A DNA stretch of 34,309 bases from an uncultured Eubacteriales bacterium (GTDB taxonomy: Bacteria > Bacillota > Clostridia > Oscillospirales > Oscillospiraceae): the NCBI GenBank assembly GCA_900319275.1, contig ONNS01000028.1:1-34309 (forward strand), in the 5' to 3' direction. This document shows, piece by piece, positions 21,261-25,121 of this stretch. Each line of letters opens with the position of its first letter. The first letter of the stretch is position 1. The position numbers were made by a program, and so were the translations under genes. Under the pieces are notes generated by a model that saw only the letters and a list, made by a program, of their open reading frames with translations, did not search any database and was not told the origin of the DNA.

Positions 21261-22619
21261 ATGTCATCTACCATCGCTGCCATCGCCACGGGCGCGCAGA
21301 TCTCGGCCATCGGGATCGTGCGTCTCTCGGGGGAGCACGCAATCGAATATGTCGACACGCTTTTCCATCCGCTCTCCGGGCGGCCGATGCGTGAAGCGCC
21401 GGACCGCCAGTTGGTCTACGGCCGTCTCTGTGACCGTAAGGGCGAGCTGCTTGATCTCTGCCTATGCACGGTCAGCCGTGCGCCGCACAGCTACACCGGC
21501 GAGGACACGGCCGAGCTGCAGTGCCACGGCAGCCCTGTGCTGCTGCGCCTGGTGCTTGAGGAATTGTTTGCCCTCGGTGCCCGGCAGGCCGGCCCCGGAG
21601 AATTTACCAAACGGGCGTTCCTCAACGGCTGTCTCGAACTCACCGCGGCCGAGGCCGTGGCCGACCTGATCGACGCCGAGAGCGCCGAGGCCGCACGCAA
21701 CGCCGCCGGGCAGCTCTCCGGTGCGATCGGCGGCAAGATCGAGGCGATCTACCGCGCGCTCATGGACGTTTCGAGCCACTATCACGCCGTACTCGACTAC
21801 CCCGACGAGGACATCGAGGATTTCGAGCTGCGCAGCTATGTATCCACGTTCAGCAGCGCTGAGGAGCAGTTAAACGCTCTTCTGCGCAGTTTCGCGCGCG
21901 GCAAGCTGATGCAATCCGGCCTTCCCAGCGCGATCATCGGCCGCCCGAATGCCGGAAAGAGCTCTCTTTTAAACGCGCTGCTCGGCTACGACCGCGCGAT
22001 CGTCACGGCTGTCCCCGGTACAACGCGGGACACGATCGAGGAAAAGCTGCGTCTCGGCAAGTTGACGCTCCGGCTGATCGACACGGCGGGCCTGCGTGAC
22101 ACGACCGACGAGGTCGAACAACTCGGCGTTGACCGCAGCCGCGCCGCGATGGACACCGCCGGTCTGCTGCTGCTGGTCATCGACAGCAGCGAGCCGCTGA
22201 CCGACGAAGACCGCGCCCTGCTGCGCCGTGCCGAGCAGGCCGACAAGGCCGTCGTTATCCTCTCAAAGAGCGATCTTGCCCCGGTCACCACCGCGCTTGA
22301 CACAACGCTGCCGGTCGTCACCGTCAGCACCCGGACCGGCGAGGGCCTTGACGCCCTGGAGCAAACAATCGACGCGCTCTTCCCCCTGCCGCCGCTGCCC
22401 GCCGGCGAGATCCTGACCAACGCCCGCCAGGCCGAGGCGATCCGCCGCGCGCTCGACGCGCTCTCCTCCGCGCGTGAGGCCATGGCTATCGGCGAGACCC
22501 CCGACATCGTTCTCACCGAAACCGAGCGCGCCATGCAGGCGCTCGGCGAGCTCACCGGCCGTTCTGTCCGCGAGGACATCACCAATCGCATCTTCGAGCG
22601 CTTCTGTGTCGGTAAATAG
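21261..22619 (+). CDS. mnmE: tRNA modification GTPase MnmE
   Basis: A 452-residue GTPase which, with MnmG, builds the 5-carboxymethylaminomethyl group on U34 of tRNAs reading NNA/NNG codons. The N-terminal folate-binding domain (IAAIATGAQISAIGIVRLSG... PHSYTGEDTAELQCHGSP... GEFTKRAFLNGCLELTAAEAVADLIDAE) is followed by a helical domain and a G domain. The G domain shows GRPNAGKSS (about 227-235), VPGTTRDT, DTAGLRDT and a G4 motif SKSD where NKxD is usual. The protein ends in the catalytic CVGK with Cys449. The start at 21261 follows AAAGGATGC. MnmG is not in the window, although in many Firmicutes the two genes are adjacent near rpmH. The gene follows lysR and may be cotranscribed. Confidence 0.97.
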   Translation: MSSTIAAIATGAQISAIGIVRLSGEHAIEYVDTLFHPLSGRPMREAPDRQLVYGRLCDRKGELLDLCLCTVSRAPHSYTGEDTAELQCHGSPVLLRLVLEELFALGARQAGPGEFTKRAFLNGCLELTAAEAVADLIDAESAEAARNAAGQLSGAIGGKIEAIYRALMDVSSHYHAVLDYPDEDIEDFELRSYVSTFSSAEEQLNALLRSFARGKLMQSGLPSAIIGRPNAGKSSLLNALLGYDRAIVTAVPGTTRDTIEEKLRLGKLTLRLIDTAGLRDTTDEVEQLGVDRSRAAMDTAGLLLLVIDSSEPLTDEDRALLRRAEQADKAVVILSKSDLAPVTTALDTTLPVVTVSTRTGEGLDALEQTIDALFPLPPLPAGEILTNARQAEAIRRALDALSSAREAMAIGETPDIVLTETERAMQALGELTGRSVREDITNRIFERFCVGK

Positions 22620-22691: not shown

Positions 22692-22720
22692 TTGACATTT
22701 CCGATTCCCTATGCTAAACT
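22692..22720 (+). promoter_or_regulatory. Promoter of the tRNA-Ser gene
   Basis: A perfect TTGACA (22692-22697), a 17-base spacer and TAAACT (22715-22720) with a TGC extended -10. Confidence 0.75.
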
Positions 22721-22751
22721 ATCCAAGCAATGTCGAGTGCATTGCGGCCTT

Positions 22752-22845
22752 GCAGAAGTACCCAAGAGGCCGAAGGGGCTCCCCTGCTAAGGGAGTAGGC
22801 CGGTTTAGACCCGGCGCGAGGGTTCAAATCCCTCCTTCTGCGCCA
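22752..22845 (+). tRNA. tRNA-Ser (anticodon GCU)
   Basis: A class II tRNA with a long variable arm. Acceptor GCAGAAG pairs with CTTCTGC, the anticodon stem CTCCC/GGGAG encloses CTGCTAA (GCT), the variable arm is GCCGG..CCGGC, the T arm is AGGGTTCAAATCCCT, the discriminator is G, and CCA is encoded. Confidence 0.96.
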
Positions 22846-22854
22846 AAAGAACGC

Positions 22855-22898
22855 CAAAAGAATAACCCCCATCCAAATGGATGGGGGTTATTCTTTTG
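22855..22898 (+). terminator. Terminator after tRNA-Ser
   Basis: A perfect 20-bp stem (CAAAAGAATAACCCCCATCC at 22855-22874 and its complement at 22879-22898) with loop AAAT. The pyrimidine-rich TTCTTTTG of its 3' arm can serve as the release tract. Confidence 0.85.
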
Positions 22899-22906
22899 GA
22901 AAGATT

Positions 22907-23193
22907 GGAGGGATTTGAATCATGTCCGCACATGCCGGTGGCATGTGCATGAACCAGTGCGCACACTGGTGAATACCTCTATTTCTTTTCGCGTCCCCCG
23001 CGAGCGAAAAGAAATGCTGGCAAATCCCTCCTTCTGTTGATCTAAAATTGATTTGATCGTCGGCCTTGCGCCGCCGGTGGCCGATGAAGCAAGGCCCTCT
23101 CATCCGCAGCGGTCGAAAAACCGGAGGAAGAGCGTAAGCCCGAACGGTTTTTCGTCTCACCGCAAGGCGGATCAAATCCCTCCTTCTGCGTCA
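22907..23193. repeat. Non-coding array of tRNA-Ser 3'-end copies and perfect hairpins
   Basis: This fills most of the 596-base gene-free stretch before the 5'-nucleotidase. The 16-mer CAAATCCCTCCTTCTG of the tRNA-Ser 3' end recurs at 23021-23036 and 23173-23188. The last copy matches the 25 terminal tRNA bases with two mismatches (23169-23193). An inverted 11-mer copy, GGAGGGATTTG, lies at 22907-22917. The first block (22907-23031) is closed by that inverted pair and holds three perfect hairpins at 22928-22948, 22953-22970 and 22981-23015. The second block is closed by GATTTGATC (23050-23058) and GATCAAATC (23170-23178) and holds stems 23062-23069/23089-23096 and 23114-23123/23145-23154. No open frame here looks like a protein gene. 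The element class is not recognised. Confidence 0.8.
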
Positions 23194-23273
23194 ACTCATC
23201 ATGTTCAGAACCGGTTGCGGCAGAAATAGCGAAGCCGTTTTTCTTACGAACAGCACAAATCCTCATTCACTTC

Positions 23274-23441: not shown

Positions 23442-25121
23442 ATGGCTAAGAAACTCCTTCCCCTGCTGCTGGCACTGGTCATGCTCTTCTCCCTGACGGG
23501 CGTTATGGCCTTTGCTGACGACGCTGCTCCCTCGGAGCGCAGCGCAGACATCGTGATCCTGTACACCAGCGACGTACACTGCGGCATCAACCAGGGCTTT
23601 GGCTACGCCGGTCTGGCTGAGGTGTACAAACACCTCGAGGAACAGGGCAACGCAGTCATTCTTGTGGACGACGGCGACAATATTCAGGGCGAGCCCGTCG
23701 GTACCATGACGAAGGGCGAGGCACTTGTCGACCTGATGGGTAAGGTCGGCTACAGCGTCGCCATCCCCGGCAACCACGAATTCGACTATGGCATGGATCA
23801 GTTCCTCGATCTGGCCAAGAACGCCTCGTTCACCTATATTAGCTGCAACTTCAACCGCGAAGGCGAGCTGATCTTCGATCCCTATGTGATCCGTGAGCTC
23901 GACGGTGTGAAGGTCGCCTTTGTCGGCGTGACCACCCCGCAGACGCTGATCTCCTCCACCCCGCGCTATTTCCAGAATGAAGAGGGCGAATACATCTACG
24001 GCTTCTTCCAGGACGAGACGGGCGAGGGCGTGTACAACGCGGTGCAGAACGCTGTTGACAGCGCCCGTGCCGAGGGTGCGGAATATGTCGTCGTTCTTGC
24101 CCACCTGGGCAATGAAGAGGAGTGCCGCCCCTGGACCTATGCCGACGTGATCTCCCACGTCTCCGGCATCGACGTGCTGCTGGACGGCCACAGCCATGAC
24201 ACCGATCAGATCGTCATGAAGGACAAGGACGGGAAAGACGTCCTCCGCTCGGCCTGCGGCACGAAGCTGGCGCATATCGGCTATGTCCGCATCACCACCG
24301 ACGGCAAGATTAGCACCGGCCTTTACAACTGGAACAACGACGAGAGCGCGCCCGCGCTGCTCGGCATCCAGAACGACGCCTCGGCCTATGTCGAGGAGGC
24401 GACCGGCGCCCTGCAGGAAAAGCTGAAGGAAGTCGTCGCCACTTCTCAGGTGCTGCTTACCATCTATGATCCGGTAGCCGTTACCGACAGCGGCTCGCCG
24501 ATCCGCATGGTACGCCGGGCCGAGACCAACCTCGGCGATCTCTGCGCCGACGCTTACCTTGACCAGTCCGGTGCCGACGTCGCCTTTGTCAACGGCGGCG
24601 GCATCCGCGTAAACATCAACGCCGGCGACATCACGCTCAATGACATTCTCAAGGTCCATCCCTTCGGCAACGCGATGTGCGTGATCGAGGTCACGGGCCA
24701 GCAGATTCTTGACGCGCTCGAGTGGGGCGCCCACGCGATCCCGGGCGAGAACGGCGGCTTCCTGCAGGTTGCCGGGCTGAGCTATGAGATCCACAGCTAT
24801 ATCGAATCCCCCTGCCAGAGCGATGAGAATTCGCTGTTCACCGGCATCGAGGGCGAGCGCCGCGTGCAGAACGTCCTGATCGGCGGCGAGCCCATCGACC
24901 CCGAAGCGACCTATACGCTGGCGAGCCACAACTACATGCTGCTCGACCACGGCGACGGCTACACGATGTTCGACGGTGCGCCGCTGCTGCAGGACAGCGT
25001 CAAGCTGGACAACCAGGTGCTGATCGACTACATCACCGGCACGCTCGGCGGTGTGATCGGCCCGGAGTATGAAGACCTCACCGGACAGGGACGCATCGTC
25101 ATCGTCCAGGAGAAGCCGTAA
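23442..25121 (+). CDS. Secreted 5'-nucleotidase / UDP-sugar hydrolase family protein
   Basis: A 559-residue exported metallophosphoesterase that would dephosphorylate nucleotides, and possibly UDP-sugars, outside the cell for nucleoside and phosphate uptake. The signal peptide covers residues 1 to about 26 (cleavage near AFA-DD). The N-terminal calcineurin-like domain shows the dimetal ligands in SDVH (Asp44, His46), DDGDN (76-80), GNHEFDYG (110-117), VVLAHLG and GHSHD (249-253). The 5'-nucleotidase C-terminal domain (about 333-525) has GDLCADAYLDQ, FVNGGGIRVNINAGDITLNDILKVHPFGN and LQVAGLSYEI. No cell-wall anchor or C-terminal transmembrane segment is seen, so the protein is probably released or loosely bound. 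The start at 23442 follows AAGAGGTACTGCTT. A secreted HAD phosphatase is convergent downstream. Confidence 0.93.
   Translation: MAKKLLPLLLALVMLFSLTGVMAFADDAAPSERSADIVILYTSDVHCGINQGFGYAGLAEVYKHLEEQGNAVILVDDGDNIQGEPVGTMTKGEALVDLMGKVGYSVAIPGNHEFDYGMDQFLDLAKNASFTYISCNFNREGELIFDPYVIRELDGVKVAFVGVTTPQTLISSTPRYFQNEEGEYIYGFFQDETGEGVYNAVQNAVDSARAEGAEYVVVLAHLGNEEECRPWTYADVISHVSGIDVLLDGHSHDTDQIVMKDKDGKDVLRSACGTKLAHIGYVRITTDGKISTGLYNWNNDESAPALLGIQNDASAYVEEATGALQEKLKEVVATSQVLLTIYDPVAVTDSGSPIRMVRRAETNLGDLCADAYLDQSGADVAFVNGGGIRVNINAGDITLNDILKVHPFGNAMCVIEVTGQQILDALEWGAHAIPGENGGFLQVAGLSYEIHSYIESPCQSDENSLFTGIEGERRVQNVLIGGEPIDPEATYTLASHNYMLLDHGDGYTMFDGAPLLQDSVKLDNQVLIDYITGTLGGVIGPEYEDLTGQGRIVIVQEKP

Follow-up and report, generated by a model that had tools for sequence, protein, structure and literature searches.

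The window, the whole stretch of 34,309 bases analysed here, carries on its forward strand a tRNA-Ser(GCT) gene (22752..22845), called by ARAGORN and matched by the Rfam tRNA family with 54.6 bits. Its upstream neighbour is mnmE (trmE; 21261..22619, forward strand; Pfam MnmE_helical 2.3e-47, TrmE_N 2e-37). The tRNA is the anchor of an array, downstream of which lies a gene of the 5′-nucleotidase family (23442..25121, forward strand; Pfam 5_nucleotid_C 5.4e-41, Metallophos). The T-loop base C56 of the tRNA (22825) is the boundary of the copies of the tRNA tail. The initial annotation had reported that a 16-mer, CAAATCCCTCCTTCTG, recurs twice behind the tRNA, and its three positions (22825, 23021 and 23173) and spacings (196 and 152) were confirmed, as was the greater length of the last copy, the 26-mer 22821-22846 having a copy at 23169-23194 that differs at two positions (92% identity). 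When up to 2 mismatches are tolerated, CAAATCCCTCCTTCTG is found in exactly 3 places in the window, while shuffled sequences contain 0.02 on average. Tail 1 (22825..22845), from C56 to CCA, belongs to the functional tRNA, tail 2 (23021..23036) is 16 nts long, and tail 3 (23173..23194; repeat analysis), which ends in CGTCAA, is probably the displaced, presumably original, end of the tRNA. No second tail copy was found for the other 4 tRNAs of the window (first 14 nts, at most 1 mismatch). The initial annotation was also right that the intervals are devoid of genes and dense in stems. There is no credible gene in 22846-23193, where the sole ORF of at least 100 aa (22711-23040) overlaps the tRNA, and the stretch folds far better than its shuffles (z -10.3).

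All features of the array are on the forward strand. A perfect 22-bp hairpin (22854..22899; inverted repeat I1) between the tRNA and the first site is read as the putative terminator of the tRNA. It is followed by an inverted copy of the T-arm, GGAGGGATTTGAA (22907-22919), capable of pairing with the tRNA as well as with each of its two tail copies (inverted repeats I2, I3 and I5). Its first part (22907..22917), the reverse complement of the local tRNA from C56, is the 5′ arm of a helix, P1, delimited from inverted repeats I2 and I5 and from the family-wide comparison, and the first 11 nts of tail 2 are the corresponding 3′ arm. The two arms enclose a conserved core (22918..23020), AATCATGTCCG ... 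ATGCTGG, defined by the family alignment and covariation, in which three hairpins follow one another: P2, GCACATGCC-GGT-GGCATGTGC (22928..22948), P3, ACCAGTG-CGCA-CACTGGT (22953..22970), and the long P4, ATTTCTTTTCGC / GCGAAAAGAAAT (22981..23015; inverted repeat I4, covariation). This first block (22907-23031) is one member of a family of structured sites of about 125 nts, hereafter type I, and is matched by our covariance model R1 with 141 bits (contig C52, 22905-23033). Unit 1 (22825-23020, 196 bp) is closed by tail 2. In unit 2, the site is of another kind, type II (23050..23177), recognized from its sequence, with outer arms GATTTGATC / GATCAAATC around a palindromic core CGCAGCGGTCGAAAA ... 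CACCGCAAGGCGGAT, and has relatives at two other loci (L012 and L013) and, as judged by eye, behind tRNA-Ser(GCT) in other genomes. Folding as DNA gave z -7.9 and -8.5 for the two strands of the type I site, a good fold, and weaker values for the type II site (z -3.1 and -3.3). The two blocks of the window are of different kinds, and their conservation is visible only across other loci.

In the genome of the window, two further good copies of the first block were found, one 55 nts behind tRNA-Gln(CTG) and one behind a 3′ fragment of tRNA-Arg. In both, the middle is conserved while the two outer arms agree with the adjacent tRNA and not with tRNA-Ser. When 40 genomes were searched at the DNA level (the own genome, 24 of the same genus and 15 of other genera), 13 gave matches, all of the same genus. 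Together with these, the matches listed for the core 16-mer in named genomes gave a set of 54 loci, of which the loci of relatives are part; many of the 16-mer matches are due to chance, and they were filtered by the P3 motif to 85 candidates and then by a hand-made exclusion list to the 54. Where source titles are present, these loci come mostly from uncultured Clostridia, often Oscillospiraceae/Ruminococcaceae and many from rumen or gut, and the genomes are drafts, mostly MAGs where titles are shown. The R1 model matched 57 of the 102 genomes of the genus at E<=0.01, with up to 21 sites per genome, and 15 of the 34 with a completeness of 90% or more and a contamination of 5% or less. Among 394 genomes sampled from the order, 6 matched at E<=1e-4, including that of the window; of the 5 matches in the remaining 393, 4 are strong and belong to three other genera of the same family, while 1 is weak and belongs to another family. 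The strong sites of other genera are diverged in sequence and keep the same plan (terminator, inverted arm, three hairpins, ...GCAAG/GCAAA or similar, tail). They include positions behind tRNA-Gln, tRNA-Arg (CCG and ACG) and tRNA-Leu(CAA), with local arms, and most sites of other genera retain the P3-like motif CCAGTGC..ACACTGG. Collections of phages and plasmids contained no match to the tRNA-Gln site, and the 16-mer matched viral contigs twice, neither time with the core.

Across the family, the order of elements is the tRNA with its CCA, a hairpin resembling a terminator, the local tRNA tail in reverse complement as far as C56, the AATCATGTCCG motif, hairpins P2, P3 and P4, the motif ATGCAAG and finally the local tRNA sequence from C56 on, both motifs showing some variation. 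Site statistics were drawn from 60 regions (L341-L400) of 11 site-bearing genomes, retaining the best 76 of 88 R1 matches and dropping the 12 weakest. A complete tRNA lies within 3 kb upstream on the same strand in 63 of the 76 sites, with 16 anticodons represented, and 42 of the 63 sites begin 39-52 nts behind it. The initial annotation had asked whether the blocks occur elsewhere and, if so, always beside the same tRNA-Ser: they are multi-copy in the own genome and across the genus, and lie behind tRNAs of as many as these 16 anticodons. On average, 14.8 of 16 positions of the right arm match the own tRNA, compared to 8.8 for other tRNAs, and 10.6 of 13 positions of the left arm do so, compared to 7.7. 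The own tail was best or tied among 21 tails in 58 of the 63 sites; of the 5 others, one (L389) reflects a tRNA called in the wrong register. In 72 of the 76 sites, C56 is the first base of the right arm, and the preceding base is G (62), A (7) or C (3) and never T, whereas the tRNA has T55. At two loci (L143 and L029), the left arm tracks changes of the right arm that are absent from the tRNA (GGATGATCG or GGGTGATCG against CGATCATCC, the tRNA reading CGATCCCC). For the 13 sites that lack a tRNA, comparable cases were seen elsewhere, behind tRNA fragments left by islands, at contig edges, and behind an element that we take to be selC, for which ARAGORN gave no call. In one further case (L064, 5991 in the oriented sequence), a type I core directly adjoins the T-loop of a tRNA-Arg fragment (GGGGTTCG|AATCATG), without terminator and without inverted arm.

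Type II and type III sites, named by eye, have the same C56 boundary and lie behind the same tRNAs as type I sites. Type II cores also occur within the P2 of type I sites (L055, L137 and L151). More generally, type II palindromes are seen inside or beside type I hairpins (L055, L137, L151 and L013), as if hairpins were swapped as modules. In another instance (L012, 1440-1640), a type II palindrome with no tRNA nearby is nested among other large palindromic repeats between genes.

RNAalifold applied to 45 aligned sites (alignment A1) predicted 39 pairs, 29 of which are backed by compensatory double changes. A wobble pair is tolerated in RNA and is a mismatch in DNA, and the spectrum of pairs in the helices therefore bears on the nature of the folded molecule. 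The 1723 ungapped helix cells of A1 comprise 1629 Watson-Crick, 21 G-T, 24 A-C and 49 other combinations, and the 2905 cells of a second alignment, A2 (76 further sites, partly overlapping A1), 2800, 39, 17 and 49, respectively; A2 was fitted to the model, so that its pair counts lean towards the model, while A1 was not fitted. As a control, the acceptor, T and anticodon stems of 38 distinct tRNAs of the fetched regions gave, in 612 cells, 554 Watson-Crick, 46 G-T, 11 A-C and 1 other combination. Hence, G-T pairs make up 1.2-1.3% of the cells in the sites and 7.5% in tRNA stems, being about six times rarer in the former (nominal Fisher 1.9e-13 for A1 and 7.7e-15 for A2, the cells not being independent). 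Because G-T is rare in the site helices while RNA tolerates wobble, selection appears from these alignments to act on folded, single-stranded DNA rather than on RNA. The excess of G-T over A-C in A2 (39 against 17) may leave room for some RNA-like tolerance.

The sites are arranged in arrays, of which 85 were delineated, corresponding to 74 distinct ones because some contigs are present in both sets. In the 74 distinct arrays, 59 of 90 tail-to-tail spacings fall at 166-205 bp, with 8 above 500 bp and a maximum of 2423 bp; typical values are about 180 bp without a gene and 0.6-2.4 kb with cargo. Convincing cargo is mostly oriented away from the tRNA. Closed tails enclose a complete XhoI-type restriction-modification pair, endonuclease and DNA methylase (L398, 1099-2702; PF04555 3e-82, PF01555 3e-43), within a unit of 2271 bp behind tRNA-Ser(GGA). 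An HTH_3 protein (L027) is likewise enclosed, and lipoprotein-like and unknown proteins are the cargo of five other loci (L159, L138, L135, L035 and L141). A clear closing tail is lacking for 23S-IVP and GNAT proteins (L041) and for an AMP-binding ligase preceding a decayed site (L155). Long intervals of 552 and 1227 bp hold no clear gene, and one of 2286 bp (L064/L392) terminates at a second tRNA-Arg fragment. The own genome has another array type as well: behind tRNA-Val(CAC) (L007, 1300-1615, contig C45), a duplicated tail and terminator surround a different hairpin block, ending in ...TTATGCAAGCGAG. Elsewhere in this genome (L340, contig C118, 55000-64498), an array was displaced by an island of about 6 kb in tRNA-Arg(ACG) and is now found at the far end of the island, following the 3′ fragment of the tRNA.

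Corresponding tRNA genes differ in whether they carry units, as the initial annotation had suggested looking for in the form of empty or extra-block sites. For tRNA-Ser(GCT), 30 loci were read among the matches in 89 genomes, and 28 contain that tRNA. A second tail is present in 7 of the 28, namely the window, with types I and II, and 6 loci whose units are of type II or III. The 21 others have no second tail within the sequence at hand, which in four of them extends over less than 300 nts, and 2 of the 21 contain the left part of a type I site. The most informative comparison concerns tRNA-Ser(GGA), where loci L198 (genome G044) and L071 are identical over 126 of 126 nts up to the end of the tRNA. 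Exactly between two 21-bp copies of the tail, L198 has 1009 extra bases comprising a hairpin, a lipoprotein-like gene, a terminator and a type I site, and the flank beyond its second tail is the one that directly follows the tRNA in L071 (98.8% over 85 nts, tail included). Past these shared 85 nts, the loci differ until they rejoin: L071 contains its own type I site, whose left arm fits the right arm poorly and which is absent there in L198, and in L198 about 360 bp of different sequence intervene. No other locus pair involves a gene cassette, and even this one does not reduce to two clean states. In two other pairs (L115/L161 and L053/L024), the difference is one gene-less unit, which starts at the terminator or left arm and not at the tail, a boundary that could equally come from unequal homologous recombination. 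A systematic comparison of loci gave more differing pairs, many based on short flank matches. Finally, the nearest neighbours of the 76 cores were in another genome behind another tail (40), in another genome behind the same tail (15), in the same genome behind the same tail (11) or in the same genome behind another tail (10). Because there is no clear clustering by tRNA or genome, the cores seem to have moved between tRNAs, in which case the arms must be renewed; such mixed relatedness of sequences fits movement without showing its route.

Because units ending in hairpins sit in arrays, some with genes, the system looks like an integron on tRNA genes. The interpretation that we favour, and regard as reasonably probable, is an integron-like cassette system that uses tRNA genes as anchors and is served by a recombinase acting in trans. 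In such a system, each unit starts at C56 of a copy of the tRNA tail, stops short of the following C56 and contains the tRNA tail, the terminator-like hairpin, an optional gene with its own terminator and the folded, putative recombination site. The type I site is a structure of four helices, presumably of DNA, P1 being formed by the local tail and its reverse complement, and P2, P3 and P4 by the conserved core. A site-specific recombinase, presumably of the tyrosine type, would use the folded single strand and let a new unit enter at the tRNA T-loop, with a crossover at or 3′ of C56. The incoming tail would restore the tRNA and the old tail would be pushed downstream, so that repetition would generate an array. 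After a move, P1 would be re-made on the new tRNA, possibly in one step, by snap-back copying of the tail from the 3′ end of the folded strand, or alternatively by selection for pairing, which would be slow.

Among the possibilities put forward in the initial annotation, minimal non-autonomous elements using the tRNA as attachment site come close to the data, in that the sites are multi-copy, present or absent at corresponding tRNAs and without a recombinase of their own. The scar of successive integrations proved too weak a description because one conserved, covarying core occurs at 16 tRNA anticodons. The inverted T-arm copy, the matching of the stem to each tRNA, the gene-carrying units and the lack of a tie to one tRNA had been overlooked.

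A dedicated recombinase was not found by integrase clustering or by searches for intI and Y1 proteins across site-bearing and site-free genomes. The clustering of tyrosine integrases covered 15 genomes of the genus (7 rich in sites, 8 without) and, at a later step, 5 from other genera; G056 and G065, both site-free, entered it with two Xer-like proteins each and the other genera with 30 loci. No family in the clustered genomes convincingly tracks the sites. Two Xer-like families are present in 14 of the 15 clustered genomes, with and without sites, and the other integrases are diverse. Within the units, an own integrase is likewise not apparent: 3 of the 2,595 ORFs of the 54 loci match an integrase profile, two beside tRNA fragments and one as a weak C-terminal remnant. 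Integrases that do lie beside sites (L003/L340, L026, L334 and L335) adjoin tRNA 3′ fragments, as island integrases do. In a genome of another genus (G399), a 291-aa tyrosine integrase is encoded directly behind a site (L450, 2947-3822), which is itself preceded by a sequence similar to the end of a tmRNA. Homologs of this integrase (E<=1e-20) are found in 27 of the 102 genomes of the genus, including G084 and not G048, G041, G069 and G082; it was rejected as the enzyme because its family is missing from most of the site-richest genomes. The integron integrase model (TIGR02249, cut-off 265 bits) matched 0 of the 102 genomes, the best listed score being about 84 bits, and 14 control genomes also match below the cut-off. 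RAYT-like Y1 proteins, set apart from the IS200-type by score and by reading, were observed at L501-L515, L517, L518 and L520, the copy at L504 having GGCGGCAGATTGCCGCC repeats upstream.

Instead of forming a system of their own, the units could be non-autonomous satellites of ordinary tRNA islands, moved in trans by the island integrase of each tRNA, with the hairpins as spacers or remnants of attP. Islands bearing integrases do use the same tRNAs, sometimes right beside an array, and C56 is within the T-loop, a known crossover region of integrases. In addition, integrases of one cluster (375-443 aa) are encoded by 6 of 11 site-bearing genomes and are absent from the integrases fetched for the site-free ones, but the four neighbourhoods of this cluster that were read are island-like and contain no site. 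Furthermore, an island integrase usually serves one tRNA, whereas one covarying core is found at 16 anticodons, and the island junctions in L137 and L151 have TTC before the tail, with identity from T54 and not from C56. We consider this explanation unlikely. No dedicated enzyme at all would be needed if the units arose by slippage during replication and by homologous recombination between the repeated tails and terminators. The tails and hairpins do constitute direct and inverted repeats, and 2 of the 3 closely examined unit-level differences have compatible boundaries; such events would leave unexplained a core common to unrelated tRNA loci and genera, as well as cargo bounded by tails, and we give them hardly any credence.

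A structured RNA, a small RNA or attenuator that pairs with the tRNA 3′ end and was duplicated with the tRNA, would agree with the strongly conserved structure, with the complementarity of one arm to the tRNA and with the RNA fold of the stretch. It was rejected mainly on the wobble spectrum, and the position of the site after a terminator-like hairpin, the gene cassettes between tails and the presence or absence of units at corresponding tRNAs also speak against it. At the gathering score, Rfam recognized tRNA alone, all other matches of the stretch being below their gathering scores. Such an RNA is very unlikely, and of the proposal in the initial annotation that the blocks are structured RNAs derived from a tRNA tail, the conserved structure stands, while the core is not derived from a tRNA and its base pairs appear DNA-like and not RNA-like. 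Movement of the hairpins as single strands by a Y1 (HUH) transposase, similar to REP/RAYT, would suit the depletion of G-T pairs, and RAYT-like Y1 proteins are encoded, within the genus, by 8 of the 11 site-rich genomes and by 0 of the 8 that lack sites (post hoc Fisher 0.003). Against this, they are missing from G048, which has 21 sites, from G070 and G066 and from the site-bearing G399, G435 and G357 of other genera, and are present in the site-free G342. To our knowledge, Y1 transposition gives no long target duplication. In the flanks of 18 of 20 Y1 loci, the only site of any of the three types was a decayed type I copy (by L514), and this lack of linkage led us to reject RAYT as the mover, an explanation that we hold to be highly improbable.

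Integrons, typical of Proteobacteria, are the best-described cassette collectors with folded single-stranded sites, and together with CALINs they are the closest parallel to the tRNA-anchored cassette system proposed here. Both have tandem cassettes with one, few or no genes, each closed by a folded site, arrays without an adjacent integrase and one fixed anchor at which new units would be added. The structure and pair spectrum point to a folded single-stranded DNA site with paired outer arms, as in integrons; tandem arrays of site-bounded cassettes, some with a gene, are present, and insertion at the anchor may be represented by one difference directly behind the tRNA, with no integrase gene found. 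In contrast to integrons, the anchor is a tRNA gene, many of which exist per genome, the hosts are Clostridia, the outer stem is the local tRNA tail and the core is strongly conserved, with four helices. The attC R-box (GTTRRRY / RYYYAAC) is found at either arm in 0 of the 76 sites. The system works like an integron but is not one, as neither intI (0 of 102 genomes) nor the R-box was found.

With tRNA islands, phage satellites and tycheposons, the system shares the duplicated tRNA 3′ tail at both ends, the crossover in the T-loop region (which is presumed here) and the cargo downstream of the tRNA. Unlike in these elements, the units read have no integrase, most measure about 180 bp and are in tandem arrays, the same folded site occurs at many tRNA types and an inverted T-arm lies inside the unit. 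Similarly, REPINs with their RAYT are multi-copy, palindromic hairpins of the single-stranded type, and the genomes studied here often contain RAYT-like genes, but our sites are tied to tRNA tails, have locally matched arms and gene cassettes, and RAYT is missing from several site-rich genomes. CTX-type phages have a folded attP recombined by XerCD at dif. They are alike in principle, a folded single strand being the site of a host tyrosine recombinase (which is presumed here), and differ in that the target is dif and not a tRNA. In the abstracts covered, which exclude most subscription papers and bioRxiv preprints, nothing resembling this system was found.

The system may, tentatively, represent an independent gene-capture system of Clostridia parallel to the integron, in which many tRNA genes serve as entry points and the site is folded single-stranded DNA, its stem being re-made from the tail of each new tRNA; a site would thereby bring its address along and leave the tRNA functional. 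The R1 model makes the arrays easy to locate, and the system raises the testable question of how a mobile site re-writes its own stem to fit each tRNA. If true, the proposal would explain part of the flux of accessory genes in these bacteria, an XhoI-type restriction-modification cassette being among the cargo, and the existence of a second, unrelated-looking capture system, located on tRNA genes in Clostridia of the gut and rumen, would suggest more than one origin of such systems.
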